From: Sthenelais limicola
Lineage: Eukaryota; Annelida; Polychaeta; Phyllodocida; Sigalionidae
Length of the DNA stretch: 64,000 nt
Reading direction: 5' to 3'
Assembly (NCBI GenBank): GCA_942159475.1
Contig: OW804097.1
Span: forward strand, 36,220,298 to 36,284,297
Shown: positions 4,152-62,226 of the stretch, piece by piece
Position numbering within the stretch: position 1 is the first letter of the stretch
Layout: each line of letters opens with the position of its first letter
The notes under the pieces: generated by a model
Databases searched by the model: none
What the model was told of the DNA's origin: nothing
Seen by the model: the letters and a program-made list of their open reading frames with translations, nothing else
Position numbers and translations under genes: made by a program

Positions 4152-4395
4152 ATTTAACATCCTAGTTCGATTCTCATGCGAGTTATTTTCGTAATATCGG
4201 CTGTCGAGACCAGTGGAGCTTCAAAAAAAATATTTGAAGGGAACCATATGTCACTAAGACATTTAAATGAGGGTGTCCCACTCTTGTTAGTATACAGACG
4301 ATCATGAAACACTGTCAGAGAAAGCAAATGTTGATATCAGTCTGATGTATGTCCCTTCTTATCACGGGGCTTCTAATAAAACAGCGGCGTTATGT

Positions 4396-4630
4396 GGGTC
4401 AGATTTTCAGAAAATGTACAATTAGCAGCTCTACACATTTAGAAAGGTTTCATTAATTAGGCTGTAAAATGATGAATACCGGGTATATCTGAGTATATTC
4501 GGTATCACATTGATTTAAAGTATCAGTTCTGTTATGTTAAACTGCATTTTGAAGCTCATTTTCATCTTAAATGTGGGCTATTTGAGACGATTGGTGAAGG
4601 CGGATTGTACATTTTCTGACGATCGGACCC
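4396..4630 (-). mobile_element. Family A MITE
   Basis: TSD ATGT. Confidence 0.87.
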
Positions 4631-4723
4631 ATGTGTTGGGAGGATAAACTGGCGAGTGTGCTCGATTTACCATCCAGACAAATGGGAATGTTAATGATAT
4701 CCTACACTTAGCAATATGCACCT

Positions 4724-4960
4724 GGGTCAGATTTCCAGAAAATATACAATTCACCTTCACCAATCCTCTCAAATAACCCCCATTTAAGACAGAAATTATG
4801 AGCTTCAGAATGCAGTTTAACATAACAAAACAGATACTTCAAATCAATGGGATACCAAATATACTCAGATATGCCCAGTATTAATCATTTTCAGCCTAAT
4901 TTAGCAGAATTTACTAAATGTGTTAAGCTGCCAGTTGTACATTTTCTGAAAACCTGACCC
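4724..4960 (+). mobile_element. Family A MITE
   Basis: TSD ACCT, one of the clearest because it is not AT-only. Confidence 0.88.
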
Positions 4961-5224
4961 ACCTTCGTTTTCCCATCTTACCCTTGCGATGGGGCCGCGA
5001 TATGACAACGTTAGCAGCATTTGATATCAGTATGGTATCATGATTCCATTAAGTAAGATGATAACTCCATGATTAGGAAGCCATGATTAAAATCAGATTA
5101 TTTGTAATCCTTATTGTTATGACATTAACTCTAAGCTTTATTTCTGCAAAGTAGTGTTATATCACTTAAAACTGTTAAATCTTAAATTGTGATCTAGATG
5201 TTATGTTCGAACCAAACTCTTTAT

Positions 5225-7675: not shown

Positions 7676-8384
7676 ACGCCCAGTCCTAAGCCAGAAAACC
7701 GATTAGCGAAGTAGGCTGACACACCATTCTTATCTGATCTGAGGGTGAATGAGTGAGATTGGTTGCTTTACACCCTTATCAACACATTTAATATGGTTAT
7801 ATCAAGGGCGGGTGAGCTGAGAGGGAGGCAGTTTATGATCATATCCAAGAAATAGAGATAGAGAAGAAGGGAAAGAGAGACAGAGAAAAGAGACAGAAAG
7901 GCACTTTATGGTCTTACCCAGGAAATAGAGATAGAGAGGAAGGGAGAGAGAGACAGAGAAAAGAGACAGAAAGGCACTTTATGATCATACCCAGGAAATA
8001 GAAATAGAGAAGGGAGAGAGAGACAGAGAAAAGAGACAGAAAGGCACTTTATGGTCTTACCCAGGAAATAGAGATAGAGAAGAAGGGAGAGAGAGACAGA
8101 GAAAAGAGACAGAAAGGCACTTTATGGTCTTACCCAGGAAATAGAGATAGAGAGGAAGGGAGAGAGAGACAGAGAAAAGAGACAGAAAGGCACTTTATGG
8201 TCATACCCAGGAAATAGAGATAGAGAAGAAGGGAGAGAGAGACAGAGAAAAGAGACAGAAAGGCACTTTATGGTCTTACCCAGGAAATAGAAATAGAGAA
8301 GGGAGAGAGAGACAGAGAAAAGAGACAGAAAGGCACTTTATGGTCATACCCAGGACCACTCTGATCTGAGGGTTTGGACCTAGA
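7676..8384 (+). mobile_element. Family D MITE copy 3 with internal minisatellite expansion
   Basis: The family block GAAAACCGATTAGCGAAGTA at 7695 and the end GGGTTTGGACCTAGA at 8370 are separated by the 72-bp tandem array at 7836-8358. Confidence 0.6.
7836..8358 (+). repeat. Minisatellite, about seven units of 70-73 bp
   Basis: Each unit contains GAAATAGAGATAGAGA, GGGAGAGAGAGACAGAG and GGCACTTTATGGTC. Units alternate between gtcttaccc and catacccag variants, giving a higher-order pattern. Confidence 0.92.
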
Positions 8385-17600: not shown

Positions 17601-20600
17601 CTAACATGTCATTCTGGTATCTGGTTGTAATATGGTTGAACTAAGAGGGCCCTGAGGGAAGGACAATGCACATATGATGAATAAATAAAATGAATATTAT
17701 GAGGTGAGAATGGGAGCACACCAGGGTTCTAAAGTAGTGTATTCCATGCCATTTTGAGAAGCAAATATATTTGTAAAGTTTGCCTTCCCTCTCTTGCTTT
17801 CATTGACCCTATAGTCCTTATGCCTTTTCCAGGCAGCTTTAGCAGCCCATTGTTCTGCATTTCACTTCTGTATTGGCACCTGGAAAGAACAGATTTATAT
17901 ATAAATTACCACAATGTCTTTCACCACATATTTACATTGTGCATGCATGCTTACATCTCTCACATTGTATTTAGATATTTGAAGTAATATCTCAAAAATT
18001 AAAAATGCAAAAAAAAAATATGGGAAGATATTGTCTGGATACAAAAATATTGTTGCCATTAATGACCCATTCATAAGAGAAGTTCCTGACTAAGTTTACC
18101 AGTGGGAGTGGGAGATGATGGAGAATTGATATTCTCAACAAAATGCTTCTATAATGTAATTAATTATTGTTTCTATGTGCATCCAACTCTCTTCAATGCA
18201 CAGGAATAATTTGATAATGTTGTATGCATCCACCAAAGCAAAGAATACAGTGCAAAATTAGTCTATACGGGCCTGCATGTTTACGTAATACATGCATGTT
18301 TACATCATACACATAGAAAGCTTTGTATTTACATATTCAAAATTATGTATTTTCAAAATTTAAAAACTCAGCAAGGTCAAGCAATATATGATGGTTGTGT
18401 CTGGATACAAAAAGGTTCTTGCCAACATTTTAAACACTGATAACAGAATTTAGAAAAAAATGCAATAGTATGAGTTAGGCTGGGAGAGGTATTTGTCAAA
18501 TAGTGTGACTTTTATAGCGACCAATATTCACTAGATAATCATTCACCAGACTGTCCCATGCCTATGATGCATGTGATTCTTTTTCCAGCCTTCAAAAGAA
18601 GATAATAAATGTGATACAATAGTTCAGATATGTTTACGTCACCCATGCATGTTTACGTCATACATGTAAGAAGCACTGTATTTGCCCAATGGAAATTATT
18701 TTTTTCAAAATTTAAAAGCTCAGCAAGGTCAAGCAATATGTGAAGGTAGAGTGTGGATACAACAGGATAATTGCCAACATTTTAAACACTGATTATAGAA
18801 TTTTTAGAAAATTGGTAATACTAGGGGTAAGGCTGGGAAGGATATTTGTCAAATAGTGTCAGTCTTAGGGACCATTAATTCACTAGGTAAACATTCATCA
18901 GACTGTGCCCCATGCCTATGATGCATTTCATTGCTTTTCCAGCCTTCAAAGCAAGATAATGAATGTGATATAATAGTGCAGAATGCTCTGCATGTTTACG
19001 TCACACATGCATGTTTACGTCATACATATAGGAAGCACTGTATTTGCACAATGGAAATTATTTTTTTTCAAAATTTAAAAGCTTAGCAAGGTCAAGTAAT
19101 ATGTGAAGGTAGTGTCTGGATACAACAGGATAATTGCCAACGTTTTAAACACTGATTATAGAATTTTTGGAAAATAGGTAATACTAGGGGTAAGCCTGGG
19201 AAGGATCTTTTTCAAATAGTGTTAGTCTTAGGGACCATTATTTCACTAGGTAAACATTCATCAGACTGTGCCCCATGCATATGATGCATTTCATTGCTTT
19301 TCCAGCCTTTAAAGTAAGATAATGAATGTAATATAATAGTGAAAAATGCTTTGCATGTTTACGTCACACATGCATGTTTACGTCACACACATAGGAAGCA
19401 TTATATTTGCACATTCAAATTTATTTTTTTCAAAATCTAAAAACTCAGCAAGGACGAGCAATATGTGAAGGTAATGTCTGGATACAACAGGATAATTGCC
19501 AACATTTTAAACACTGATGATCGAATTTTTAGAAAATAGGTAATACTAGGGTAAGGCTTGGAGGGATATTTGTCAAATAGTGTGAGTCTTAGGGACCAAT
19601 AAATCACTAGGTAAACATTCACCAGACTGTGCCCCATGCATATGATGCATTTCATTGCTTTTCCAGCCTTTAAAGTAAGATAATGAATGTAATATAATAG
19701 TGAAAAATGCTCTGCATGTTTACGTCACACATGCATGTTTACGTCACACACATAGAAAGCATTATATTTGCACATTCAAATTTATTTTTTTCAAAATCTA
19801 AAAACTCAGCAAGGACGAGCAATATGTGAAGGTAATGTCTGGATACAAAAGGACTCTTGCCAACATTTTAAACACTGATGATCAAATTTTTAGAAAATAG
19901 GTAATACTAGGGTAAGGCTTGGAGGGATATTTGTCAAATAGTGTGAGTCTTAGGGACCAATAAATCACTAGGTAAACATTCACCAGACTGTGCCCCATGC
20001 ATATGATGCATTTCATTGCTTTTCCAGCCTTTAAAGTAAGATAATGAATGTAATATAATAGTGAAAAATGCTCTGCATGTTTACGTCACACATGCATGTT
20101 TACGTCACACACATAGGAAGCATTATATTTGCACATTCAAATTTATTTTTTTCAAAATCTAAAAACTCAGCAAGGACGAGCAATATGTGAAGGTAATGTC
20201 TGGATACAAAAGGACTCTTGCCAACATTTTAAACACTGATGATCAAATTTTTAGAAAATAGGTAATACTAGGGTAAGGCTTGGAGGGATATTTGTCAAAT
20301 AGTGTGAGTCTTAGGGACCAATAAATCACTAGGTAAACATTCACCAGACTGTGCCCCATGCATATGATGCATTTCATTGCTTTTCCAGCCTTCAAAGCAA
20401 GATAATGAATGTGATATAATAGTGCAGAATGCTCTGCATGTTTACGTCACACATGCATGTTTACATCATACATATAGGAAGCACTGTATTTGCACAATGG
20501 AAATTACTTTTTTCAAAATCTAAAAACTCAGCAAGGACGAGCAATATGTAAAGGTAGTGTCTGGATACAAATTAACAATTTATACACAAATCAGACTCTT

Positions 20601-46769: not shown

Positions 46770-46855
46770 TCCTGCCTTTACATCTCTCCGTATTACTGCA
46801 TTAGTGGCTTGTATGCACAATCTATTATGTACAATATGCATGTGTATGTATATAT

Positions 46856-47093
46856 GTGTCAGACCGTCGAAAAATATACAATCGGCAGATCTACACATTT
46901 AGTCAATTCTACTCAATTAGACTGTAAAAAATGGTCAATACTAGGTTTAGCTGAGGGTATTTGACATTGCCTTGATTCAAGCAATCTGTTTGGTTATGTT
47001 GAACTATATTTCAAACCTAATTTCTGGCTTAAATTTGGGTTATTTGAGAGGATTGGTGAAGGTGAATTGTACATTTTTATGACGACTTCACCC
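46856..47093 (-). mobile_element. Family A MITE
   Basis: Left end decayed to GTGTCAGACCG. Confidence 0.82.
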
Positions 47094-47114
47094 ACATACA
47101 TGTATACTGTATAA

Positions 47115-47349
47115 GGGTCAGATCTTCAGAAGTTGTACAATTCACTTTTACCAATTCTCTCAAATAACCCCCATTTAAGACAAAAATAAGGTTCAAAATG
47201 CAGTTTAACATAACAGAATAGATATATTAAACCAACAAAAAACCAAATGTCCTCAGATAAAACCGGTATTCATCATTTTTCAGCCTAATTTATCAGAATT
47301 TACTAGATGTATAGAGCTGCCGATTGTACATTTTCTGACGATGTGACCC
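47115..47349 (+). mobile_element. Family A MITE
   Basis: TSD ATAA. Confidence 0.87.
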
Positions 47350-47570
47350 ATAAGTATTTGGACCCCCCCCTCCTCCTTTCCTCACCTGAAACCTTTAAAC
47401 ATGTGCAAGTGCCTTATACCAACAATACCAAGAAACCCACAGGTATTATATCCAATCTTTAATGCCACGTGAGGACATGAGGCAAGAGAATGGTTTACTT
47501 CTCATGTCCTGGAACTCATGAATACCGCGAATCACTGGCAAGAATGAATGAATGCCCCTCACACACACAT

Positions 47571-47805
47571 GGGTCAGATTTTCAGAAAATGTACAATTGG
47601 CAGCTCTACATATTTAGTAATTTCTGCTAAATTCTGCTAAAAAATGATAAATTTTTGGTATATCTGAGTATATTTGGTATCACATTGATTTAAAGTATCA
47701 GTTCTGTTATGTTAAACAGCATTTTGGACCCCATTTCTGTCTTAAATGTGTGTTATTTGAGAGGATTGGTGAAGGTGAATTGTACATTTTTTGACAATCT
47801 GACCC
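47571..47805 (-). mobile_element. Family A MITE
   Basis: Both ends intact. Confidence 0.86.
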
Positions 47806-47858
47806 ATATATAGAGTTCCCTTTTAGGCTCCATGGTGGGTAAACGATATACTATATAT

Positions 47859-48086
47859 GGGTGAAATCGCCAGAAATGCACAATAATGGCCTTCACCAAT
47901 TCTCTCAAATAACTCCAAGTTAAGACAAAAATGAGGTTTAAAATTCAGTTCAACAAAACTAAACAGATTGTTTGAATCAACCCAATACCAAATATACTCA
48001 GATATAATTAAAATTGACCATTTTTCGGCAGAATTTAGCAGAATTTCCTCAATGTGAGGAGCTGCCGATTGTACATTTTCTGACCC
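47859..48086 (+). mobile_element. Family A MITE
   Basis: Right end lacks the GATCT step before GACCC. Confidence 0.82.
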
Positions 48087-48838
48087 ATTATGATCACTTC
48101 ATAGGGTCAATGTATGTTAAGACGACAGGCAGAGATTAGTAATTTTTAGATTGATGTTATCATCAATCTAAGTGAATTGGGGTGAGATCTGTCAATCATT
48201 GATAGCATCTTGGCTCCTCCCATCCTGGATATCAGTGTGAAGAATCTGTTGATTCTGATATCAGTAGATGGGATCAGAATCATGCTGGTAATGGCTGGGA
48301 GGGGGAGGGGATGGCGTTTAGGTGTGAATTAAAGGGTAGACCATGTGTGAATTAAAGTGGCAAGCTGAGAAATAAGATGCCTCATATGCAAAGTGTTAAA
48401 GGGACCAACAGAATTACATGGACTGACCAGTCATATATGGGATAAGGATTTCATGTGTTCTGTCTCCCCTTCCACTCCCTCCTACTATACCTCCCTCTCG
48501 AATTTTATATTTAACTGACATCAATCTTCGTTTCCCTTGGAAACGCAATCTTCTACATGAACCGGAAATAAATATATAAATGTAAACTGATTACTGTTAA
48601 CTATTTCTTGTTTGATGATGAATGTATGTGTTAAACAGGCAAAATCACATAGAATATCTAATTCCGGCGCCTGTAGATTTGTCAAACAAACAGCAGATAT
48701 CTGTATCTTCCTTGACAAAATGATGATATTCTGTTCTAACCCTATTGAAAAGCTGATGATTTAATAATTAGTCTTCAAACAAAAATCACCTTCTTGGATC
48801 TTGCGTCTCTTCGATTATGTAACCCACCCCAGGCAGAA
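48087..48838. other. No feature seen (left flank of the outer LINE)
   Basis: No gene or shared repeat recognised. Confidence 0.5.
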
Positions 48839-48850
48839 GACTTGATCCAT
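48839..48850 (+). repeat. Left TSD of the outer LINE
   Basis: GACTTGATCCAT is identical to 60935-60946; two further A residues upstream may extend it to 14 bp. Confidence 0.93.
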
Positions 48851-49542
48851 GGACTTCCGGTTACAACGCGTGCGGGATACAAAGTGGAACTTAGAAGCTC
48901 CGGCCATATCGTCATTTCTTTTTTTATCTTCCTCGCGCAGGCGAATCTTTCTAGCTAGAAAGGTTCATGAATGCTCCTGGAGTGTGGAGAAAGGAGTAAA
49001 ATAGACAAAAAGAGCTGGGATTCTTTGGAAAAAGTGTTAGAAAAATCAAGCGTCCCTCCTCGTGGAGTAGCAGCCATCTTGATCTGGACAACGGTCAACT
49101 GGTCAAGCGTGGCCCAGACGTTTAATCAGATGAACAGTGGATTTCGGCTATCTTTTGGACTTTGAGACAGTATTTCTGAGCACTGGACAAATATATGCAT
49201 ATAATCCCTGGGATAGAAGGGTGTGTTGGCCTGACTTTGAAAGATCGAAGCTAGGTTAAAACTGAACCGAGCCAGGAAGGCGGGAAATTTGCTACGGTGA
49301 GTTTCAAGAGACTCTGAAACAAGGACTAAGAAGGTGATCTTGACTTTAAATCTAGCTAATAATAACAAGGAGGTTAAATGAACATTGTGTGTATGTTAAG
49401 AGCCTGGGCCAGTGAATAAAGACTGAAAAAAGATAGACAGAAGGCCTACAACAGGGTGATCGCGCAGCCACAAGGTGATTCTAGCATAATCGCGCAACTA
49501 CCACAGCGCGGACGTAAACAAACCTCGTGAACGGCGCCATTA
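48851..49542 (+). promoter_or_regulatory. 5' UTR / internal promoter region of the outer LINE
   Basis: These 692 bp lie between the left TSD and the ORF1 start. No convincing ORF is present. By analogy with other full-length LINEs it should hold the internal promoter; no specific motif is claimed. Confidence 0.5.
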
Positions 49543-50907
49543 ATGCAGAAGAACGCGAAAAAGATCAAGTTATCTGGAGAAGGCATGGCCGAAGCAGATG
49601 CCATGCAGGTCGATAAAGACCCATTAATTGTTAAGATGCAAGCCATGATGGATGGCATGGAAGCTAGACTAAAGGCTTCCATGACAGAATGTGTTACTAA
49701 TCATCCTAAGGTGAAAGAGAACGCCGAGAAGATCGAGAAAATCGAGACGGCGCAAGAGAATCAGGAGGCGCGCATCGAGAGGTTAGAGAAAAGGATCAAC
49801 AAACAGGATCAGGAAATTGCAATGCTGAGGAAGACAAGCGTCAAGAAAGACGATAAAGCATTCCTGATACTGGCGGAAGATGCCAAGAAAAAAACGGAGG
49901 AGCGGCTAACAAAGGAGAAGGAAAACATGAGTAAGAGTTTTGTCATCGAAGGCATAGCTAGAGCAAAAAAAACAGCCAAAGAGGACAAGCAATACTTGGA
50001 GAAGACTGCGACCGAGATTCTAAATAACGGTCTAAGTATGGATGTCCCTGACGGGGCTAGAGTTAACAGGGCTGGCCCTCACATGAGAGTTTCCTTTATG
50101 AACGACTGTGATGCTTTTGAGTTTTGGACCAACAGGCTCGAGCTCAAGGATTACATATTACCAGAAACCGGAGCCAAAGTGTGGGTAAAACGCGACCTGC
50201 CTAAGGAACTGAGACTCAGGGAAAACAGGGCAGACTACCTAGTTCGCAAGGCCAGAAGGATGAAATTGTATGATCGGATTAGCCAGTTTGAAGGTAATAT
50301 TAACATTAACGGAGATGTATATTACCATGATCAATTCCACACGTTGCCCAAAGAGATTAATCCGATCTCGCTAGCCAAGGTGGAGGACAATGATGCTCTT
50401 GTGTTCTTCGGTAAGGAATCTCCTTTATCAAATCACCACTTGGCCGACTTCCATACTGGTGGTGTGAATTTCTCATGTGTTGAACAATTCTTAGCCCACT
50501 CATGTATGAAAGCTACAGAGGATGCAGCCAGGGCTCACTCCATAACTACGATGAGAAATCCAATGCTGTGTAAAGACGTGTTGAATACTGCAAAAAAAGC
50601 AGGGTCTGCGAAACATAAAGCCTGGATGCAAGGAATGGAGGAGACCCTATATGTGGCCCTTAAGGCAAAGGCGATTCAAAACCAGTACATCTCCGACTAT
50701 CTCCTCGAAACAAGAGCCAAGAGATTAGGGGAGGCGTCCCCAACCAATTCGGTGTGGGGAATTGGAATGGGTTCCCAACATGCTGAGGTTTTAGATCATG
50801 GGAAATGGCCTAAAGAAGGGAACATCGTTGGAAAAGTGTGGGAGAGAGTAAGATGTCATTTACAAGGTAGAGCTGCAGTAGCGGCAAAACAAGGTGGTGG
50901 CTCTTAG
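49543..50907 (+). CDS. Outer LINE ORF1 protein: coiled coil, L1-ORF1-like region, NADAR domain
   Basis: This is an intact 454-aa frame. Residues 56-100 form a Glu/Lys-rich heptad coiled coil (ENAEKIEKIE, RIERLEKRIN), as in trimeric L1 ORF1 proteins. Residues about 131-268 look like the L1 ORF1 RNA-binding plus C-terminal region (RVNRAGPHMRVSF, VKRDLPKELRLRENR). Residues 286-440 match NADAR (PF08719, formerly DUF1768): FFGKESPLSN (288-297), SCVEQF with Glu314, Trp361, LKAKAIQN (373-380), WGIG (405-408) and GNIVGK (426-431). NADAR enzymes cleave N-glycosidic bonds of ribose-phosphate compounds, and some remove ADP-ribose from guanine. That it acts on element nucleic acid or host ADP-ribosylation is inference. 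A short Gly/Ser tail ends the protein. The core motifs suggest a folded domain, although some positions diverge from the inner LINE. Confidence 0.85.
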   Translation: MQKNAKKIKLSGEGMAEADAMQVDKDPLIVKMQAMMDGMEARLKASMTECVTNHPKVKENAEKIEKIETAQENQEARIERLEKRINKQDQEIAMLRKTSVKKDDKAFLILAEDAKKKTEERLTKEKENMSKSFVIEGIARAKKTAKEDKQYLEKTATEILNNGLSMDVPDGARVNRAGPHMRVSFMNDCDAFEFWTNRLELKDYILPETGAKVWVKRDLPKELRLRENRADYLVRKARRMKLYDRISQFEGNININGDVYYHDQFHTLPKEINPISLAKVEDNDALVFFGKESPLSNHHLADFHTGGVNFSCVEQFLAHSCMKATEDAARAHSITTMRNPMLCKDVLNTAKKAGSAKHKAWMQGMEETLYVALKAKAIQNQYISDYLLETRAKRLGEASPTNSVWGIGMGSQHAEVLDHGKWPKEGNIVGKVWERVRCHLQGRAAVAAKQGGGS

Positions 50908-50963
50908 GAACTCCTGCACATGCCATGACAGTCTAACTGGATGTTACTACCACAACAACCAAG

Positions 50964-53458
50964 ATGGCAGTCAACAACATTGAATCGATAGTTTCGACAA
51001 ATGATCTTACAGCTTCACAAGAGACAATTGAGGAAGAAAAGAACACCTTTAGACTAAATTCTCTCAACTGCAACGGTGTGTCTGATATCAAAAGGCGTAA
51101 AGCATTATTTACTAAGTTGGGCTCCAGCAAACGTTCTATTTACGCTCTTCAGGAGACCCACTCTGACGTGGCCTCTGAACCTGTCTGGCGTAGTCAATGG
51201 AAAGGAAATATTTACTTTAGCCATGGTAGATCCAATTCGGGTGGGGTTGCCATTCTGATGTCAAATGATTTTGATTATAAATTTATTGCCAAAGGTAATG
51301 ACACTGAAGGTAGATTTGTGTATGTATGTGTAGAAATTGAAGATATTGTGTGGTGCCTGGTGTCGGTTTATTTTCCCACATCTTCACACAAAGTCGAACA
51401 GAAGTGAGCTCTTATAGAGTTGCGAAAAATGTTGGAACCGATTGAATGTCAATGTATGGCTATTTTGGGGGATTTTAATATCGATAAGATAAACAAGTCG
51501 AAGGAGGTAATGTCGGTTAGACTTGAAAGGTTTTTATGTAAATTTGATCTGAGTGACTCGTTACAAGCTCTGTATAATCAGGATCATACCTGGTCAAGAA
51601 ACAGTCAAAGGTCTAGAATTGATTACATATTTTTAAGTGAAGCGGCTGCTAACATGATAGCTGGGGGTCAGGTCGACATAATATCGTCATCTGACCATAA
51701 GATTTTGTACATTGATATTTTGAGCAAAGTTAAAAAAAGAGGAAAAGGCTTTTGGAAGCTAAATAATAATTTGTTAACAGACAAAATGTTGGTTGAAGAT
51801 ATTAAAAGGGTAATTCATGACCATGTGTTTGAGTATCGTGAGGTTTGTCCCATACTAACATGGAACCTGTTAAAAGATAAGTGTAAGGCCAAATTCCGCA
51901 CCAAAAGTAGGGAGGTAGCCTGGGCCAGAAACGAGAAGAAAGGCCACATGCAGTTAAGACTTGAAGAGCTTGATGCTCAAAATAGTTTAAGTGTTGAAGA
52001 AGAAAATGAAATTAGAGAAATAAAGGCAGAGATGTGTGCTATTGATCTGATTAAAGCCGAAGGGGCCCTTATGAGGTCCAAAGCAGAGTGGATAAGGGAT
52101 GGCGAAAAACCATCCAAGTATTTTTTAAATCTTGAAGCACAAAACGCAAGGAAGAAAACTATATCCTGTTTGTTGATCGAGGATACCTTGTCGGAGGACT
52201 CGTATGAAATCATCGAGGAAGGTAGAAGATTCTATTCTGAGCTTTACTCTAAAAGAGATATTGTTGACGGTGAAGCCGACTTCTTTTTAAATGCAGATGT
52301 AAAGGAGCTAAGTGTGCCAAAAATCGAATGGCTGCAAAGGCCTGTTACTGAAGGTGAAATTAAAAATGTAGTATCAAGTATGAAAAATGGAAAATCACCT
52401 GGCAGCGACGGCTTGTCGGTGGAATTTTATAAAATTTTTTGGAATGATTTATCTGGTGCTTTTATGGAGATGATGCATGCTGTTAACGATGAAGGTAGAA
52501 TGTCATCTGAACAGAGAAAAGGTATAATATCGGTTATTCCTAAGAAGGGAGTAGATCTCAGGAGGATAAAGAACTGGAGGCCAATAACGTTATTAAATGT
52601 AGACTATAAGATCGTGTCGAAGGTTATTGCTGAAAGAATCAACTCTGTCTTACCCGAAATTATTGATGAAGACCAGCATGGTTTTATTAAAAATAGATAT
52701 ATTGGTGTCGCCATTCGTAGGATTCAGGATAGTATTAATTTCTTAGCCAAAAAAAACATGAGTGGGATTGCAATTGCCATCGATTTCAAAAAAGCTTATG
52801 ATTCTATCAGTTGGCAGTTCCTACAGAGATGCTTGGGTCGTTTTGGTTTTCCGGAGTTTATCTGTGGGTGGATTGACACTCTTTTATCTGATTCTGTTTC
52901 AACCTTTACTAATAATGGTAACATGTCAGAGTGGTTTGAAGTAGAACGCGGGGTTAAGCAAGGTGATCCGGTTTCACCGGCCATGTTTACTCTTGTTGTT
53001 GAACGATTAGGTGCTAAAATCAGGGAAATGGTCGAAATTCAAGGTTTCGAAACTGGTAATATTATTAACAAAATAGTCCAATATGCGGACGATACCACAC
53101 TACTGTTAAAGAATAAGGTATCTGCTGTGAACGCATTAAATGTTATCCAGCGGTTTGGAATGGCCTCAGGGTTGGTGGTTAATATCGACAAAACTGCGGG
53201 TTTAATAATTGGAGAGTGTGACATTTCCAACAGTATTTTAGATGGTATAAGCTGGCAAGATACTGTAAAAATCCTGGGAATTGTCCTTGTAAGGCCAGGA
53301 GCCGAAGAAGATGAAAACAAGCTAAATTTTAATGATTTGATTAAAAGAATGAAGAGTGTCTGCGGTATATGGAACTCTAGACATCTCTCCCTCAAGGGAA
53401 AGGTGATAATAAATAACTCCCTAATTTTACCTATGTTGCAGTACGTCCTATCCTGTAT
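50964..53458 (+). pseudogene. Outer LINE ORF2, 5' part (endonuclease and reverse transcriptase), one TGA
   Basis: The frame opens at ATG 50964, has an in-frame TGA at 51405-51407 and is otherwise open to the nested insertion at 53458. It encodes an APE-type endonuclease (LNCNGVSD, ALQETHSD, GDFNIDK, SRIDYIF, SSDHKI) and a reverse transcriptase (NGKSPGSDGLS, ISVIPKKG, KNWRPITLLN, AIDFKKAYDSISW, GVKQGDPVSPAMF, YADDTTLLL). The TGA sits at codon 148 between AAG and GCT; a CGA-to-TGA change would explain it. Joined with 59403-60708 the coding length is 3801 nt, an exact multiple of three. Confidence 0.9.
53453..53458 (+). repeat. Left TSD of the nested LINE
   Basis: CTGTAT is shared with 59397-59402; the wider match is TCCTGTAT versus TTCTGTAT. 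Confidence 0.7.
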
Positions 53459-53472
53459 TTGTATTTAAGATT

Positions 53473-53478
53473 TTTATT
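53473..53478 (-). terminator. AATAAA poly(A) signal of the nested LINE
   Basis: On the - strand AATAAA lies about 15 bp before the element's 3' end. Confidence 0.6.
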
Positions 53479-53826
53479 CAGACAAGACATTATGTACAAG
53501 TACAATATTCTCAGAATTCGCTGATTTCTAGTAATTTCTATATATTTTACAGAATCGAAAGCTTTTTAGTGGCAATAAGTTCACATAAATTTACAAGTAC
53601 TTTAAAATTTACATAAGATATGGGTATATCGATAATTAAAACATGGTCACCTATAATAGATGTATCTAAAAACAAACACCTGCGCTTTGTTCAAATCATG
53701 ACAGTCAGTGAAAGTTTTTCTAAATTCATTTAAACATTGTTGAAGAATCCAAGAACATGTACTCATACGAGCAGAGACTAATAACAATATACTACCATCC
53801 AGTTCAATATTCCTAATTATTTCAAC

Positions 53827-56727
53827 CTAAAATACCATCGGATCTGGAATATTCCAGATGTTACCACTGTCTTTGAATGACTTTAAACAGATCTTTTTTA
53901 TCTGGTTCGAGAAAGCAACCTTTTCATCCAACCTTCTGATATTATTTGGTACCACATTCCAAATTGTATTAACCCTACATATTAAACTTCTCCGTATACT
54001 CTCTTTTCTCCAATATCGAACTCTCACCCTATAGGGGTCCCTCATGTTATATTCATGCATTTGGACGGTTTCACTATCCTTCTCAGCCCAAAACAAGCAC
54101 AAACACCGAACCAATCGTCTATAACATAAAGGTATTAATCCGCATCGATCATGAAGATCAATATTTGTTAATCGTTGGTTTTCCCTTATTCTTATGCTAC
54201 AAATAATCCGGAGACAACTGTTCTGTAATAGCTGGAGTCTTCTCGAATCTTTGTTACAAGCTATATCAATCACAATGCCTCCAAACTCTAAGATTGGCAA
54301 TATATACGTCTTGTATATTAAACATGTAATTTCTGTCGAAATAAAATGTCTGATCTTCCTCAACCTGTTCTTTAGCATTGTTACTTTAATACAAATGGCA
54401 TTTATATGTTGTTTCATATTCAAGTGATAATCAAGTACAAACCCTAAATATTTAAAATCATCAACGACCTCGATCATAGTCCCATTATTGTATATATTCA
54501 GGTCATTTTTTCTACCACGTCGACCTGTAAACACCTGTAGCTTAGTCTTTTTAGTATTTATTTTTAAACCATTTAAGTTCACCCACTCATTGAACTGATT
54601 TACATCACTTTGAATCCTACGTATATCATCATCGTTTGTCCATTTATGTAACAAAACACAATCGTCGGCATAAAGAATAACATCTCCATTAAATTCCAAC
54701 CTACAAATATTATTAATATACAGAATAAAGAGTAAAGGTCCCAGGATACTTCCCTGGGCCACACCAGCTTTAAGAGAAAGGGTATCTGATCGAAATTCAC
54801 CATTTAATACAAACTGTTTTCTGTTCTTTGAGTAAGTTCTAAGTAACTCTAATAGCTGGCCTCTTATCCCAATCATTTCTAATTTTTTCAGTAAGATGTC
54901 GATATTAATAGAGTTAAAGGCTTTAGAAGCGTCAAAATAAATAGCAATAGTATCTTCCCCTTCATCTTTATTTTTGAAAACAATGTCTAAGAAATACCTC
55001 ATTGCGTTATCTATTCCTTTTCCAGGCCTAAACCCATATTGGTGACAATATAAATATTCAATTCGACACAGATGATCTTCAATTTTCTTAGCGACTATCT
55101 TCTCTAATATTTTCCCAAATATAGGGCTTATTGATATCGCCCTCAGGTCATCGATTTTTCTAGAATTCTTTTTCTTCGGAATTATCGCGCAAATGGCCAC
55201 TTTCCAAGGACTAGGAAAGTATCCGCTAGTCTTAATTTTATTCAGTAGACTAACAAATCTCTCTATACAAGCTAGAATAGCATATTTGACAAATTTTGAG
55301 TTTAACCCCAAAATACCAGAACATTTGGTCGTGTCAATATCCTTAACAATCTTTGATACCTCCTCCTCCGATATCTCATCGTCCCATATAAGAGTCTGAT
55401 ATTCATTCTCCTCATTTTCGATATAATCAGGTGAAGAGTTCGGGTCGATATTACAAAAATAATTATTTATATAATTTACAGCCTCTAGACCTTTCAAACA
55501 CTCATTTTCTGAAGTTATTACATGATCATTCACCACATTTCTACAAGATGTCATCCCAAAAATATTAGCAATCTTCTGCCAAAATTTCCTATCGCTTCTA
55601 GAGTAATCTCTGCAAATTCTACTAACAATATCTTTTCTGACCTTCACCACACTACTTTTAACCTGATTTCGTATTAATTTTGCCTCCTGCCAATGGACTG
55701 GGTCCATTGAAATAATAGCTTTCTTAAATAGTCTGTTTTTCCTTCTTACCAGACGCTTCAAGTCCCTATCATATACAACACCCTCTTTATTTGTTGTTAT
55801 CTCCACTAGTGGATATAGTTCATCCTGAACAGAGGTTAAACTATCACTAAATCGATTACATATCTGATCTATGTCATCATTATTCCAATAATCTTGGTTA
55901 TGACTATCCATTTCTTCTTTTATCGTATCATATTGCATTTTATTTGTTGGTCTAACAAAGAAGCTCTCATCTTTATCTTTTAAGTCCACACCCCTCTTTT
56001 TCTTTATAACTAGATATAAAGGTAGGTGATCACTGATATTTTCTACCAGTGTCCCACTATCCCTTACATGTCGGCAGTTTGAGGCGATAAAATCAATCCG
56101 ACTGCTACCATTCATAGTTATCCGTGTGTCCACGTTTATATGTTGAACAAGGCTATAACTTTCTAACAATGATATGAATCTTCTGCTATTTGCAGTGGCC
56201 TTCTTAATATCAATGTTTACATCTCCACATGTAATAAACCTGCTCTTATTCAGGGTTTTGTCTACACTGCATGATAATATTTTACCAAAACTAGTGAAGA
56301 ATTCGTTCATCGATCCCACTGGCGGCCTATATAATACTGAGATTAGGGTAGATTTGTTCTTTCCAGGTTTAACCTTACAAGTCAATACCTCTAAATCAGA
56401 ATCAATGTGTGTCATCTCGGGAACTGTACATATAGTGTAACTGTCCCTATAAAATATTATTATTCCGCCACCTCGTTTGCCAGACCTGTCCTGGCGTACA
56501 AATTTATATCCTTTAACATACAGCATGCTATCGGTAATGTCTTTGCTTAACCAGCTCTCCACAATGGCGACGATATCATACATACCATTTAGATATTCTA
56601 ATTTCATATAATCCAATTTATTAAATAAGCTACATACATTAAAGCATATCAGCTTAAAACCCCTGCTCGTAGACACATTTACATTGGTGTCACACATAGT
56701 GTCGACACGCAAACCTACGTTCGTCAA
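53827..56727 (-). CDS. Nested LINE ORF2 protein: APE endonuclease and reverse transcriptase (CR1/Jockey-like)
   Basis: This is an intact 966-aa frame. The APE endonuclease spans about 24-242: FKLICFNVCSLFNK, VESWLS with Glu57, GDVNID (168-173), SRIDFIASN and SDHLPL (232-237). The reverse transcriptase spans about 505-770: AICAIIPKKK, FRPGKG, FDASKAFNSI with Asp599, AGVAQGSILGPLLFILYINN (654-673) and YADD (686-689). The C terminus has the HDRCGLIPL-type region common in CR1/Jockey elements. The protein nicks target DNA and copies the element RNA (target-primed reverse transcription). Nothing in the catalytic blocks looks broken. Confidence 0.93.
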   Translation of the reverse strand: MTNVGLRVDTMCDTNVNVSTSRGFKLICFNVCSLFNKLDYMKLEYLNGMYDIVAIVESWLSKDITDSMLYVKGYKFVRQDRSGKRGGGIIIFYRDSYTICTVPEMTHIDSDLEVLTCKVKPGKNKSTLISVLYRPPVGSMNEFFTSFGKILSCSVDKTLNKSRFITCGDVNIDIKKATANSRRFISLLESYSLVQHINVDTRITMNGSSRIDFIASNCRHVRDSGTLVENISDHLPLYLVIKKKRGVDLKDKDESFFVRPTNKMQYDTIKEEMDSHNQDYWNNDDIDQICNRFSDSLTSVQDELYPLVEITTNKEGVVYDRDLKRLVRRKNRLFKKAIISMDPVHWQEAKLIRNQVKSSVVKVRKDIVSRICRDYSRSDRKFWQKIANIFGMTSCRNVVNDHVITSENECLKGLEAVNYINNYFCNIDPNSSPDYIENEENEYQTLIWDDEISEEEVSKIVKDIDTTKCSGILGLNSKFVKYAILACIERFVSLLNKIKTSGYFPSPWKVAICAIIPKKKNSRKIDDLRAISISPIFGKILEKIVAKKIEDHLCRIEYLYCHQYGFRPGKGIDNAMRYFLDIVFKNKDEGEDTIAIYFDASKAFNSINIDILLKKLEMIGIRGQLLELLRTYSKNRKQFVLNGEFRSDTLSLKAGVAQGSILGPLLFILYINNICRLEFNGDVILYADDCVLLHKWTNDDDIRRIQSDVNQFNEWVNLNGLKINTKKTKLQVFTGRRGRKNDLNIYNNGTMIEVVDDFKYLGFVLDYHLNMKQHINAICIKVTMLKNRLRKIRHFISTEITCLIYKTYILPILEFGGIVIDIACNKDSRRLQLLQNSCLRIICSIRIRENQRLTNIDLHDRCGLIPLCYRRLVRCLCLFWAEKDSETVQMHEYNMRDPYRVRVRYWRKESIRRSLICRVNTIWNVVPNNIRRLDEKVAFSNQIKKICLKSFKDSGNIWNIPDPMVF

Positions 56728-57279
56728 TACGCGCTACATAAAATACACAAAAAACAATTACAATACTCAATTCAACCACAAAGATATATATATTCATTAT
56801 TGTATCTTGTGGCAAACACATTTCGGCTCTATAGAAACCTTCCAGGACATCCCCTTGCATAGTTTAAGTAAGAAACACAGTTTTATTTACGTACCATGTA
56901 TCGTTTTCACGCCATCGGTAGCCATCTTGGTTTTAACTACTTCCTCCTCTTCCGGTTATATGTCGTAAAACCATACAACATTTTTAAAGCTAAATCGTCA
57001 AATATAAATTATTAATCGTTTGTAGACTCGCTTCGTTACATTGTTATAATTACATAAACCTATTTTATAAGTTTAATTCAATTTTTAAACTCTGCAGAAA
57101 CAATAAACCCGATGGCGTAAATCACGACATTATATTGCGACACTACAAGTACCCACTTCCGACACAAAATGGCCGACATGGACAAGAACCAACGTAAACT
57201 CAATTTTTTACAAGACAAATACAGCAATGCAACACTAAGTATACGGTGTTTCAGCACATATATACACTCTTATGATAGT
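56728..57279 (-). other. ORF1-ORF2 spacer of the nested LINE
   Basis: This 552-bp stretch holds no convincing ORF on the element's sense strand. The gap is much longer than the 56-bp gap in the outer LINE. Confidence 0.6.
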
Positions 57280-59172
57280 TTAGACAGATTCTTTGTCTCT
57301 TCCCTCACTTAGAGACGCGTGCAGGGCGGTAATATCATGTAGACTGTCCGTGTCAAGTGGTACGAAGCTTCTCTCCGTTCTGTTCGCACGTGTGCTGTTC
57401 AAGCTTGACGAACCTCGAACATCAGAACCACCACCCTGTCCTCGTCTTGACCTATTCATTATAGGTAAGTCAGTTTGCAAAGATGGCGTGGTTATCTCCA
57501 TGCTCTCCTCATGATCTGTATTTCGTGATTTGTCCTTGTCAACTAAAGCATCAAACCGGTTATTAGTATCCACCGGGGTTGTAGTAGGCATGGCATTCGC
57601 TTTCCTCGTCACGTTGCCCGCAGCTGGGTGTGTAAATCCAGTCTTGTCAGTCGTGGCTTGCTGTTTAGGTTGTCCCTTATGGCGTTTGCAAATCAATTTG
57701 TTGAATTCACCTTTACTGTGTGCCTCTGTGACTTCTTTCCGTACCTGTTTTAGTAGCTTCCCCAATAAATTCTTGCCTTTGTCTTTCCAGGTACCGTTAG
57801 CGAGATGGACGTCTCCGAGGATACATCCAGACCCCCATTTGCGATTGGTCGTTGCCTCTATCAAGTCCACATTACCAGTTCCTGACAATTTCTCAGCCAA
57901 TACAGGATTTTGATAAAATTTGCAACGAAGTATCTGGAGCATTACCTCTTCTTCCATGGCAGTCCAGGTCGGATTAGGTGGAATTTTGTCCCCCATGCCT
58001 TTGATGTCTCTTGGATCATCAGTCTCCAAGATCGACTGTGCAACGGATGGCCTTCCTAGAACAAGGCACTTTTTATGTTGAAATGCTTGCTCGGAACTGC
58101 TATACATATTATCCTCAAATTGTAGTACACTGGACGAAAAGTTACTTAAATATGCACTCTCGCCCTGGAATGCAATACCACCCTTGACGTCGATGATCTT
58201 AATCCTTTCGATTGCATATTTCTCCTCAAGCAAGTGTAGGTGTCTACTACCATAAATCACCCCATCAATCTGAACTTGATCTCCTTTTGGTCTAGTAGTT
58301 TCAGAGTTGGCACCAGACAACAAAGCGTTTTTAGCCAAAAGCCTCATCGTGTTCTTACGTTTCTTCATTTCAATAGTGTCATGCTCTCTGAAGAACATGT
58401 TGGATTTACAAGGCCACATTTTGGTAGGAAAGACTTTTTCATCAGCGAACGGATCTCTCCTCCTAACCAATTCTTCCTTCACGCCCTTATGGATCAGGCG
58501 TATAACTATAGGGCTAGGCCCCCTCTTATGTGAAGCCTTAATCTCTCGATATGCAGTATCTACGGTCCCATCCCATATTTTAGGGAATATTCCACGGAAG
58601 ATCTTCTTTACCAATGACACAGTGTTTTCATTTTTTGTACTAGGGCAGCCCTCTAGCACTATATACGACTCTCTATGCTGTTGTTTGACGATTTCCAACT
58701 CATCCTTGACTTTAGTAACCTGGGATGTTAGATATTGTGATTTGCGTTGTTGAGCACCTAATCTCTGACCCAGCTCAGCAAACCCAGCCTTACATTTATC
58801 TTCGATGGTGAGTATGTCATCTTTTTTACACATTTGGGTCTTCATATCAGATACTTCTTGTCTTAACTCCTGTTGAGACGTGAGTAATGAACGTATTATT
58901 CTGTTCTGTTCGTTACTAGACAACGACATTGTATTGATTCTGTCGTAGATACTTTCTATGTCATTATCAACATTGACCCCGTCATCAGCTAGTTTGGCTA
59001 TGTCAGATTCTAATTTGTCAATACTAGCTCTAGGCTTTTTACCTTCATTATTTATTATCGGTGAGATTTGATCAGCTCCACGTTTGGCATTATTTGGTGT
59101 TCTCGGCGTGCTGCTAGCTGCAGCTAATCCCAGTGGCAACACCTCACCTTGTTGATGGTCTCCGTTCTCCAT
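57280..59172 (-). CDS. Nested LINE ORF1 protein: coiled coil, RNA-binding-like region, NADAR domain, basic/Ser-Thr tail
   Basis: This is an intact 630-aa frame. A Pro/Ala-rich head (1-50) leads to coiled-coil segments (about 50-170; KLESDIAKLA, QQELRQEVSDM). Residues about 170-320 resemble the ORF1 RNA-binding and C-terminal region (PIVIRLIHKGVKEELVRRR). Residues 333-478 are a well-kept NADAR domain: AFQGESAYLSNF, SSSEQAFQHKK with Glu361, DDPRDIKGMG, Trp403, VMLQILRCKFYQNP, GTGNVDLIEA, WGSG (446-449) and GKNLLGKLLKQVR. All the usual family blocks are present, so hydrolase activity is plausible. The tail (480-630) is Lys/Thr/Ser-rich. It precedes ORF2 by 552 bp. NADAR in ORF1 of a CR1/Jockey-type element is not something I know to be standard for the clade. 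Confidence 0.88.
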   Translation of the reverse strand: MENGDHQQGEVLPLGLAAASSTPRTPNNAKRGADQISPIINNEGKKPRASIDKLESDIAKLADDGVNVDNDIESIYDRINTMSLSSNEQNRIIRSLLTSQQELRQEVSDMKTQMCKKDDILTIEDKCKAGFAELGQRLGAQQRKSQYLTSQVTKVKDELEIVKQQHRESYIVLEGCPSTKNENTVSLVKKIFRGIFPKIWDGTVDTAYREIKASHKRGPSPIVIRLIHKGVKEELVRRRDPFADEKVFPTKMWPCKSNMFFREHDTIEMKKRKNTMRLLAKNALLSGANSETTRPKGDQVQIDGVIYGSRHLHLLEEKYAIERIKIIDVKGGIAFQGESAYLSNFSSSVLQFEDNMYSSSEQAFQHKKCLVLGRPSVAQSILETDDPRDIKGMGDKIPPNPTWTAMEEEVMLQILRCKFYQNPVLAEKLSGTGNVDLIEATTNRKWGSGCILGDVHLANGTWKDKGKNLLGKLLKQVRKEVTEAHSKGEFNKLICKRHKGQPKQQATTDKTGFTHPAAGNVTRKANAMPTTTPVDTNNRFDALVDKDKSRNTDHEESMEITTPSLQTDLPIMNRSRRGQGGGSDVRGSSSLNSTRANRTERSFVPLDTDSLHDITALHASLSEGRDKESV

Positions 59173-59396
59173 TATCGCTCAGGCCAGTCGATTCACACAC
59201 TAAAACAGTTCGTAATTCCTAGAATACTGATCGATCAGGTGATAAAAGTCCATATATATGATCACGATCGGTAATTCTCGCAATAGTCTCATTAAGACTT
59301 TCCAGAGATTCCTAGTAAGTCTCTACGACCCGAAATTCACAACGTATTTAGGCTCGATTGAAAAAAGCTGCTGCCATTTTGAATTTTCGCGCCATT
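59173..59396 (-). promoter_or_regulatory. 5' UTR of the nested LINE
   Basis: This stretch lies between the right TSD and the ORF1 ATG. On the element's sense strand it begins AATGGCGCG and contains AAAATGGCAGCAGC, a start typical of full-length LINE copies. Confidence 0.5.
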
Positions 59397-59402
59397 CTGT
59401 AT
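59397..59402 (+). repeat. Right TSD of the nested LINE
   Basis: CTGTAT matches 53453-53458; the outer ORF2 reading frame resumes here. Confidence 0.7.
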
Positions 59403-60708
59403 AAATATAGATGTGCACATGGAAAAAACCATAAACAGGGTCGCTAGATCTCTGATATGGGGTGGTAGGTCAAACAAAATCAGCTCTGCCTTTCTCAAAC
59501 AATCGACCGAAGATGGAGGGTTAAACCTTCGCAGTATTAAAGAGATAATTCAAGCTAACAGAGTTATGTGGGTGAACAGAGCCCTATATGAAAAAGAGTC
59601 AAAATGGGTTAAAATTTTGGAAAAATTTCACGATATGGGAGTGGAAGATCTTCTACTTGGTAGGAGGAAACCCCCCATCAGCCTTGGACCCTTTTATGAT
59701 AATGTATTTAGTGTTTGGGCGAGGTTATATTTTAACAGAAAGCCCCAGAATAAAAATGAAGTACTAGAGGAAAGAATAGCCAACAACAGATGGATAAAGG
59801 TTGGTAGGAAAGTAGTACGGAGAAAACACTGGTCGAACGCCGGTATTAATGTTATCCGTGACCTGCTGAGAGATGATAATACTTTCTACTCACATGAGGA
59901 TGTCACACGTAAATATGGTATCAGATGCTCATTCATTGAAATTTTACAGATCAGATTTGCTATACCTTTCGATTGGTTGGAGAAAATCAGAAACAACGTG
60001 GTTCAGGAAAACAGAGTTAGAACTAGATTGTTTGAGATCAACGGTAAAACATTTAATATTTTCAAAACCAGTAGCAAAGAGTTGTACAAAGAGCTAGTCG
60101 TATCTGATAGACCGGACTATGATAAACTCAGAGTCTGGGATGATACTGTTGCTGATATCGAATGGAACCCTGATCAAGATCTATCCAAAATAATCTTTTT
60201 AACTCCTGTTAAGAGCTGTACTGAGTCTAGATTACAGGCTCTCCAATATAGGGTCGTGCATCGAACAATTTGTTGTAACGAATACTTGAAAAGGATAAAA
60301 ATAGTACCAACTAACAAGTGTTGATACTGTGATGAAAAAGATGATTTAAGACACTTCTTTGTATCATGTGTAAATACAAGAGCCTTTTGGGACATGTTAA
60401 TGCTAAAGTTCATGGAAAATGATGTATTGAGCCCAATTGCTCACAACAACCTTCATGCTCAGAGCATTCTTCTAGGGTATTTTGGTACAGAGAGATTTAA
60501 TATCTTTTTTAATTGGATTTTGATTATGGCAAAAAACATGATTCACAGACAAAAGCTGTTCTATAATAATATCATTGAGTTCAGAGCCTTCGTAAATGAA
60601 GTAAAAAGACAGTATCGTGCCTTGTCCTACAACGGGGCATTCGATAAGAGCAGCTCTGTATGGCTGTCCAAGGTTAGAGTATTTATGAAGGAGTTTTGTA
60701 AAATCTGA
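59403..60708 (+). pseudogene. Outer LINE ORF2, 3' part (C-terminal region with zinc-knuckle-like motif), one TGA
   Basis: This continues ORF2 in phase after the nested LINE and one TSD copy are removed. It begins with the conserved post-RT segment (MEKTINRVARSLIWGG) and carries a C-terminal Cys/His cluster (NKC..YC, then LRHFFVSC) typical of Tx1/L1 ORF2 ends. A TGA at 60322-60324 falls between the first two Cys codons. ORF2 ends at TGA 60706-60708 (about 1266 codons overall). Confidence 0.88.
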
Positions 60709-60904
60709 TACTGGTGTTGACAAATACTTGCCTAGTGCGCGAGTCTACCTTGTTATGAGTCATTATTTCATGTAGATGTCATTATTGTTGTAGATATGTG
60801 TAGGAGGAGAAGAAAATAAGAAAATCCAAAAAAAAACTTTAAAAAGAATAAGGTACAGCAAAGAAAAAATTTAGATCTGTATATGCCCAGATGGCAGGTA
60901 GCTG

Positions 60905-60934
60905 AATAAAAACCTTTAAAAACAAAAAAAAAAA
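60905..60934 (+). terminator. Poly(A) signal and tail of the outer LINE
   Basis: AATAAA at 60905-60910 is followed by an A-rich stretch and 11 A residues (60924-60934) right before the TSD. Confidence 0.85.
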
Positions 60935-60946
60935 GACTTGATCCAT
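60935..60946 (+). repeat. Right TSD of the outer LINE
   Basis: GACTTGATCCAT directly follows the poly(A) tail and matches 48839-48850. Confidence 0.93.
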
Positions 60947-61702: not shown

Positions 61703-61930
61703 TGAAATCGGCAGAAAATGTACAATTCCCCTTCACCAATCATCTCAAATAACCCAAATTTAAGACAACAATCCGGTTAAAAATTCAGCTCAACATAACC
61801 AAACAGATAATTTGAATCAAGGCAATGTCAAATATTCTCAGATATAGTATTGGCCATTTTACAGTCTTATTTAGCAGAATATACTGAATGTGTAGATCTG
61901 CTGATTGTACATTTTCTGAAGATCTGACAC
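61703..61930 (+). mobile_element. Family A MITE
   Basis: Left end has lost GGGT; right end GATCTGACAC. Confidence 0.8.
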
Positions 61931-61991
61931 AGTTATAAATAGATAATGGTGATAAGTAGTGGTGGTCAGTGGAGATAAATATATCACACAT

Positions 61992-62226
61992 CGGTCAGAT
62001 TTTCAGAAAATGTACAAATGGCAGCTGTGCTCATTTCGTAAATTCTGCTAAATTAGGCTGCAATTTGGTCAATACTAGGTAAATTCGAGTATACTCGCCA
62101 TTTCATTGATTCTAGCAATCTGTTTGGCTACGTTGAACTGTATTTTGAACTTTATTTTCGTCTGAAATTTGGGTTATTTGAGAGGATTGGCGAAGTTGAA
62201 TTGTACATTTTCTGAAAATCTGACCC
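61992..62226 (-). mobile_element. Family A MITE
   Basis: TSD ACAT; first base mutated (CGGTCAG). Confidence 0.85.

Follow-up and report, generated by a model that had tools for sequence, protein, structure and literature searches.

The ORF1 protein of a LINE in the genome of Sthenelais limicola is an L1-type (type II) ORF1 that carries a NADAR domain behind its C-terminal domain (CTD). This element, here called the outer LINE, is interrupted by a second LINE (the inner LINE), which has a different reverse transcriptase (RT) and the same order of domains in its ORF1. Comparisons of these two proteins with 11 relatives lean to a single fusion of CTD and NADAR that later spread across RT lineages, and the pocket of the NADAR appears to have changed in nearly all members. 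The window in what follows is the whole 64-kb stretch of DNA that we analysed.

Anatomy of the two nested LINEs

The outer LINE consists of a 5' leader, ORF1, ORF2 (from position 50964) and an A-rich end. Both an A-rich 3' end and a 14-bp target-site duplication (TSD) are present, features that are typical of L1. The two elements comprise the following features outside the outer ORF1.

48837..48850 (no strand): left copy of the TSD, 14 bp, AAGACTTGATCCAT, found by repeat comparison
48851..60932 (+): outer LINE, assigned to the L1 superfamily; body between the TSDs with the inner LINE within, recognized from the TSD, the ORFs and the L1-like ORF2 piece
50964..53452 (+): 5' part of the outer ORF2 (endonuclease, RT), with an in-frame TGA at 51405-51407; read as separate pieces
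53459..59396 (-): inner LINE, in the outer ORF2, with the 6-bp sequence CTGTAT on both sides (53453-53458 and 59397-59402)
53827..56733 (-): inner ORF2 with RT; its match to human L1 is confined to the RT region
57280..59178 (-): inner ORF1, 632 aa, with the outer-like domain order plus an additional tail at the C-terminus
57733..58158 (-): inner NADAR (Pfam stretch 341-482, E 4.6e-26)
59403..60708 (+): 3' part of the outer ORF2, resuming beyond the inner LINE; contains the second TGA (60322-60324)
60933..60946 (no strand): right copy of the TSD, 14 bp, AAGACTTGATCCAT, immediately 3' of the A-rich tail

In the 5' part of the outer ORF2, RVT_1 passed its Pfam cut-off and the endonuclease matches stayed under theirs (20.9, 22.9, and 19.8 bits vs. 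24.5, 27.4, and 24.5), and the Pfam search gave no match in the 3' part. Its ORF2 being broken by two stops and by the inner LINE, the outer element is a dead copy. The inner LINE sits antiparallel in this ORF2, that is, one NADAR LINE lies within another. Its 3' end has no poly(A), and TTAAATACAA stands directly before the 6-bp repeat. No endonuclease match was among the matches listed by the Pfam search of the inner ORF2, and an Rfam search of the whole 64-kb window returned no family at gathering score.

Reverse transcriptase lineages

The outer ORF2 was compared with L1 over the piece 51408-53465, which matched human L1 ORF2p with an E-value of 4e-65 along residues 25-684 of 686; the best match of this piece to R2 proteins had an E-value of 1.9e-24. 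For the inner ORF2, the match to human L1 (E 1.2e-22) covered only residues 452-767 of 968. In BLAST comparisons with an L1 fragment, the outer ORF2 scored 229 bits over 675 columns and the inner one 107 bits over 330 columns, and the two ORF2s scored 73.9 bits against each other over 291 columns. An RT core of 251 columns contained 83 identities between outer and L1, 79 between inner and L1, and 72 between outer and inner, so that core identity by itself is not decisive in separating the outer from the inner RT. Between the motifs that we take to be B and C, the outer RT has the length found in L1, and the inner RT falls 13 residues short of it. The extent of the matches and this length difference rule out that the two RTs are of one kind. 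We conclude from these sequence comparisons that the outer element belongs to the L1 superfamily and that the inner element lies outside it. The first-pass annotation had described two LINEs with one ORF1 order and differing RTs, labelled L1/Tx1-type (outer) and CR1/Jockey-type (inner). The common order and the difference between the RTs hold; within the L1 superfamily, Tx1 is a putative label for the outer element, as is CR1/Jockey for the inner one.

ORF1 proteins with a NADAR domain

The outer ORF1 frame (49531-50907, + strand) has 458 open codons, with the first ATG at 49543. Domain borders were read from the secondary structure of an AlphaFold model, which was based on a 12-row alignment and had a mean pLDDT of 83.5.

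49543..50907 (+): outer ORF1, first ATG to stop; the frame is open from 49531
49621..49929 (+): coiled coil (residues ~31-133, counted along the open frame), modelled by AlphaFold as long helices
49930..50322 (+): RRM (134-222) and CTD (223-264) of the L1 ORF1p type, from the AlphaFold model, Foldseek and profile
50323..50385 (+): CTD-NADAR linker (residues 265-285), colinear in 13/13 NADAR ORF1s with one extra residue in P0009
50386..50892 (+): NADAR (residues 286-454), from the Pfam stretch 296-444 and the fold
50503..50505 (+): codon TGT for Cys325, placed by alignments at the essential-lysine site (K50 of the Phytophthora NADAR)

That a NADAR lies at the C-terminal end of the outer ORF1, as had been claimed, was borne out by Pfam (PF08719; E 6.8e-17, 62.6 bits vs. 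a curated cut-off of 35.1, residues 296-444) and by Foldseek, in which the model matched the NADAR structure 8bau (E 2.2e-9) and E. coli YbiA (2b3w; 2.8e-6). The same model matched the human L1 ORF1p trimer (2ykq) with an E-value of 6.0e-5, and the NADAR forms the end of the protein. A chance match was ruled out for the outer NADAR by the curated score, the agreeing fold and the 11 relatives described below. The inner NADAR scored 92.5 bits against the same cut-off of 35.1 (E 4.6e-26). Its ORF1 continues for ~145 residues past the NADAR, where model confidence is mostly low (mean pLDDT of the whole model, 68.0), and Foldseek matched this model to 8bau (2.4e-9), 2b3w (1.4e-7), and L1 ORF1p (1.5e-4). 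According to the models and a profile, both ORF1s have the coiled coil, the single RRM and the CTD by which type II ORF1s are recognized. The two motifs that had been quoted for the NADARs, VFFGKESPLSN and AFQGESAYLSN, were both found in the translations, and the divergence noted between the two domains is confirmed by 38 identities in 152 aligned residues.

Searches for further members returned 2 relatives among 7,996 scored candidate proteins with the outer ORF1 as query, 1 among 7,992 with the inner ORF1, and 9 among 7,997 (8 of them new) with an alignment of five sequences. The family thus totals 13: outer, inner, and 11 further NADAR-ORF1-like proteins. Precomputed Pfam annotation assigns a NADAR to all 11, and the full domain order was recovered by alignment in ten; the other, P0010, is incomplete and begins close to the border of RRM and CTD. 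CTD, linker and NADAR were in line in all 11, and, judged on this aligned architecture, the 11 proteins are probably LINE ORF1s. P0010 was left out of the domain identities, the junction scan and two ORF1 trees reported below. When a profile of 12 NADAR ORF1s was searched against the PDB, it matched 8bau (E 5.5e-31) and human L1 ORF1p (E 5e-15). Human L1 ORF1p (2yko, 2ykp, 2ykq) resembles the NADAR ORF1s in its coiled coil, RRM and CTD, as seen from the fold and profile matches, but it has no NADAR match beyond the CTD. Scans of viral contigs with the outer ORF1, both ORF2s and one alignment yielded 3, 11, 0, and 77 pattern stretches, with no relative among them.

The NADAR pocket in LINEs

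Passages of PMC11543638 describe the Phytophthora NADAR as holding the distal ribose by E43 and E125 and contacting the pyrophosphate through K50, R79, W89, R93, W133, and, via water, D130. For the E. coli C7 NADAR, the same passages report that the (basic) equivalent of K50 is essential for activity and that the equivalent of E125 is required; at the E43 equivalent, Ala had a minor effect in vitro and Gln abolished activity. The Phytophthora nicotianae enzyme (8bau), a guanine de-ADP-ribosylase, shares its fold with the LINE NADARs, together with E43, W89, and E125, the equivalents of which are present in 13/13 LINE versions. The K50 equivalent is Lys in 11/13, including the inner NADAR, and Cys in outer and P0003.

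Unlike in 8bau, R79 is replaced by D, N or E in 12/13 LINE NADARs, with members of both tree groups (see below) affected and P0008 as the exception. The outer residue at this site is Asn in our first alignment and Lys in a second one, in which the count becomes 11/13. Among 16 reference NADARs (14 found by tblastn with the inner NADAR, 2 from the PDB), 13 have R or K at this site and none has D, N or E; in a wider set, R or K occupies it in 66 of 69 non-LINE rows. A Fisher test on the less favourable alignment gave 1.9e-9, a value that, since the rows are related to each other, should not be read as the probability of independent events. R93 is likewise gone in 12 LINE versions (basic in 1/13 LINE rows, 16/16 references and 49/69 non-LINE rows; Met in outer), but this is weaker evidence than R79, since the residue is non-basic in 20/69 non-LINE rows too. 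The wider set derives from 160 fetched loci that were found by patterns around E43/K50, E125, and D130; the conservation of these sites in the 69 non-LINE rows is therefore partly selected, while R79, R93, and W89 lay outside the patterns.

By alignment, then, LINE NADARs have retained the ribose side of the pocket and changed the phosphate side. The changed pocket may mean that the substrate differs, that it is bound more weakly, or that the RNA-bound ORF1p assists its binding. With R79 altered in almost every LINE version, the substrate may be something other than ADP-ribose. The hydrolase activity of the outer NADAR is doubtful, and with Cys325 at the K50 site we do not file it as an active de-ADP-ribosylase. 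Its binding of ADP-ribose is doubtful as well, given Cys at K50, Asn or Lys at R79, and Met at R93, and we infer that the outer element has a weakened or binding-only version of the domain. Decay of a single copy is an unlikely cause of Cys325, since the step from Lys to Cys (TGT) takes three base changes; Cys325 is more likely a trait of the family.

A broader reading would extend this to all members, so that the LINE ORF1 NADAR is no longer an enzyme and serves as a structural module or one that binds nucleic acid or ADP-ribose. The Cys at K50 in outer and P0003 and the losses of R79 and R93, each in 12/13, would fit such a module. However, all 13 have W89 and both glutamates that bind the ribose, K50 is retained in 11, and a non-basic residue at R93 also occurs in the 20 non-LINE rows mentioned above, and we consider this reading rather unlikely.

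One fusion or two

LINE NADARs split into two groups in our trees, one of outer, P0001 and proteins of the P0002 type, and one of inner, P0009 and P0011. P0003 was unstable, grouping with outer and P0001 in one tree and with inner and P0011 in another; this protein, which has a very long branch, was left out of one 28-row tree and of the 81-row tree. Dereplication dropped 107 of the 160 fetched loci, and 35 of the other 53 were dropped for the 47-row tree. Bacterial or phage rows stood between the LINE groups in three of the four free trees, the LINE rows needed two changes in all four, and bootstrapping (200 trees) brought them together in 12, 4, 4, and 4 percent. Holding all LINE NADARs in one clade gave trees that were 1.04 (29 rows; p-AU 0.354), 1.46 (28 rows; p-AU 0.249), and 0.83 (47 rows; p-AU 0.507) log units worse than the free tree. 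With 81 rows, the held tree was 12.97 log units better than what the free search found (p-AU 0.683). A single clade was thus rejected in none of the four AU tests and had the higher likelihood in one. A NADAR phylogeny had been proposed as a check in the first-pass annotation. Now that it has been run, the free trees do split the groups with two changes, yet one clade stands unrejected in 4/4 tests, and NADAR sequences and trees alone do not settle one fusion versus two. By BLAST, 12/13 LINE NADARs found their best match in another LINE NADAR, and P0009 in a bacterial one; the inner NADAR scored 87.4 bits against a bacterial NADAR vs. 81.3 against the top-scoring protein of the outer group.

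The junction between CTD and NADAR, together with the change at R79 common to both groups, shifts the balance to one fusion. From outer Tyr264, in the last CTD strand, to the Ser of the NADAR motif LSN there are 37 residues in 12/13 proteins and 38 in P0009. In a sliding scan of 275 stretches of 37 residues across the 12 full proteins, only the stretch from outer residue 250, which comprises the CTD end and the linker, was equal in length in 12/12. A further reading of the scan is that 63/275 stretches were of equal length in at least 11/12 proteins, mostly from the CTD end into the NADAR; length constancy therefore marks the whole CTD-NADAR region and not the linker alone. The linker also contains an LP motif, with Leu invariant in 13/13 and the following Pro in 12/13. 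A tree of RRM and CTD pairs outer with P0001 (87/84) and the NADAR tree does likewise (100/99), so RRM-CTD and NADAR seem to have moved as a unit in this pair.

These observations bear on whether a NADAR was added to an already similar type II ORF1 twice, once in L1-superfamily LINEs and once in the inner lineage. Two separate captures would agree with the free trees, in which the poorly joined LINE groups (12, 4, 4, and 4 percent) are separated by bacterial and phage rows, with the bacterial affinity of the inner and P0009 NADARs, and with the uptake of a NADAR by Ectocarpus Gypsy elements, as described in PMC12477816, which means that capture recurs. Those are also retroelements with a NADAR, there located in Pol. 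What counts against two captures is the almost equal junction length, the LP motif, D/N/E at R79 in both groups, and the 12.97 log units in favour of one clade in the 81-row test, and we regard them as unlikely. The first-pass annotation had left the choice between separate captures and an exchange of ORF1 modules. We refine this in that one fusion followed by ORF1 exchange is favoured, because of the colinear junction and the common D/N/E at Arg79, and two captures are less so.

There is precedent for such exchange between LINE lineages in CR1 and L2, where, according to PMC4120745, an accessory ORF1 domain (esterase or PHD) is common across RT lineages. That case involves other domains, and both of its lineages are inside the Jockey superfamily, unlike the NADAR LINEs. 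A NADAR ORF1 that was ancestral to both RT lineages, descended vertically and was then lost in most is improbable in our view: the same source does record type II ORF1s in several clades, but very many losses would be required, and it also reports likely whole-ORF1 exchange.

Conservation of the NADAR within ORF1

Over the 66 pairs formed by 12 proteins, mean pairwise identity was 36.5% in the NADAR, 33.8% in the linker, 30.3% in the CTD, 28.7% in the RRM, and 19.0% in the coiled coil, the top value being subject to the caveat that relatives were recruited partly via the NADAR. On these identities, the NADAR appears conserved no less than the RNA-binding part of ORF1, which would be indirect evidence of selection for the domain in retrotransposition. 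That the NADAR is an unconstrained passenger, kept by chance after a recent fusion, is very improbable, for although the outer copy is dead (two ORF2 stops and the insertion), the NADAR is the top-conserved domain over 12 diverged ORF1s and its ribose-binding residues persist.

Known relatives and a possible role

Tx1 elements belong to the L1 superfamily. In Repbase, the ORF1s of several Crassostrea gigas Tx1 families appear to contain a NADAR, for which RNA processing was suggested (PMC12477816). Like the outer element, these Pacific oyster LINEs combine L1-superfamily membership with a YbiA-family NADAR in ORF1, and the outer element is probably a relative of this already noted kind. The comparison is by description, as the report devotes one passage to them, which contains no analysis of the junction, the active site or other lineages. 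Among the literature matches listed, we found no account of NADAR in LINEs beyond PMC12477816, and none of a second RT lineage, a common CTD-NADAR junction or a changed pocket; a survey of transposons in bivalves (PMC10294476) does not mention NADAR in its main text.

The abstract of PMC11125620 refers in general terms to eukaryotic and viral NADARs. According to PMC11833690, NADARs reverse guanosine ADP-ribosylation of RNA, which macrodomain and ARH-like enzymes tested alongside did not, and PMC9503650 places NADARs in RNA-virus polyproteins, with removal of host ADP-ribosylation proposed as their task. We also observed a NADAR-like gene in Vibrio phage vB_VpaP_SJSY21 (L001:301-1032), directly before a gene annotated as 3'-phosphatase, 5'-polynucleotide kinase, an RNA-repair-like neighbourhood.

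The explanation that we prefer is that an L1-type ORF1p and a NADAR were fused once, that the module was exchanged among RT lineages, and that it acts on ribosyl adducts at the RNP; taken as a whole, it has in our estimate about an even chance of being right. A NADAR of bacterial or phage-like origin would have joined once behind the CTD of an L1-type ORF1, and the CTD-NADAR module would then have passed among LINEs with different RTs, most simply by ORF1 exchange. Through its coiled coil, ORF1p would form a trimer on the element RNA as in human L1, a step suggested by the fold, and this would place the NADAR on the RNP. There it could remove ribosyl adducts (ADP-ribose or a relative), with outer-like versions perhaps binding only. 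Such adducts might be laid by host ADP-ribosyltransferases on the element RNA or cDNA or on RNP proteins. By analogy with other NADARs, shielding the LINE RNP against ADP-ribosylation by the host may be the likeliest role, and we propose this with moderate confidence. ZAP is a PARP-family protein. It reportedly restricts human retrotransposition, going by the title of one study, 'The Broad-Spectrum Antiviral Protein ZAP Restricts Human Retrotransposition'. A more specific version, to which we assign a low likelihood, a little below that of two captures, is that the once-fused CTD-NADAR cassette moves between RT lineages as a counter-defence, clearing from its place on the RNP the ADP-ribose-like adducts with which the animal host marks foreign nucleic acids, and that its pocket has been refitted to a LINE-specific substrate through loss of the arginine that binds pyrophosphate.

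A candidate for the opposing activity comes from six edible clams, in which PMC11209040 describes an ADP-ribosylating activity directed at the N2 of guanine in DNA. The reversal by NADARs of the marks left by CARP-1, the clam enzyme, has no experimental confirmation according to the passages of PMC11543638, and the clam activity is only a lead to a counterpart of the LINE NADAR. If our preferred explanation is true, retrotransposons would, like bacteria and viruses, carry a nucleic-acid de-ADP-ribosylase. This would suggest an as yet undescribed defence of animals in which the RNA or cDNA of retroelements becomes ADP-ribosylated. ORF1 sharing would moreover span a wider RT distance than in the CR1/L2 cases of PMC4120745. 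The 13-member family, with its differing residues and the nested pair, makes direct tests possible.

Other features of the window

Elsewhere in the window, self-complementary repeats of ~500 bp with ~73-78% identity occur at 4394-4962, 46853-47352, 47570-48083, and 61712-62214, some of them near the outer LINE; these are perhaps miniature inverted-repeat elements. Tandem arrays were found at 18273-20571 (361-bp period, 6.4 copies) and at 7826-8355 (73-bp unit, 7.3 copies). Two open frames likely belong to host genes: 11515-11946 matches the GMC oxidoreductase N-terminal domain (E 5.3e-13) and is likely an exon, and 38683-39090 matches the PLAC8 family (E 2.1e-15).
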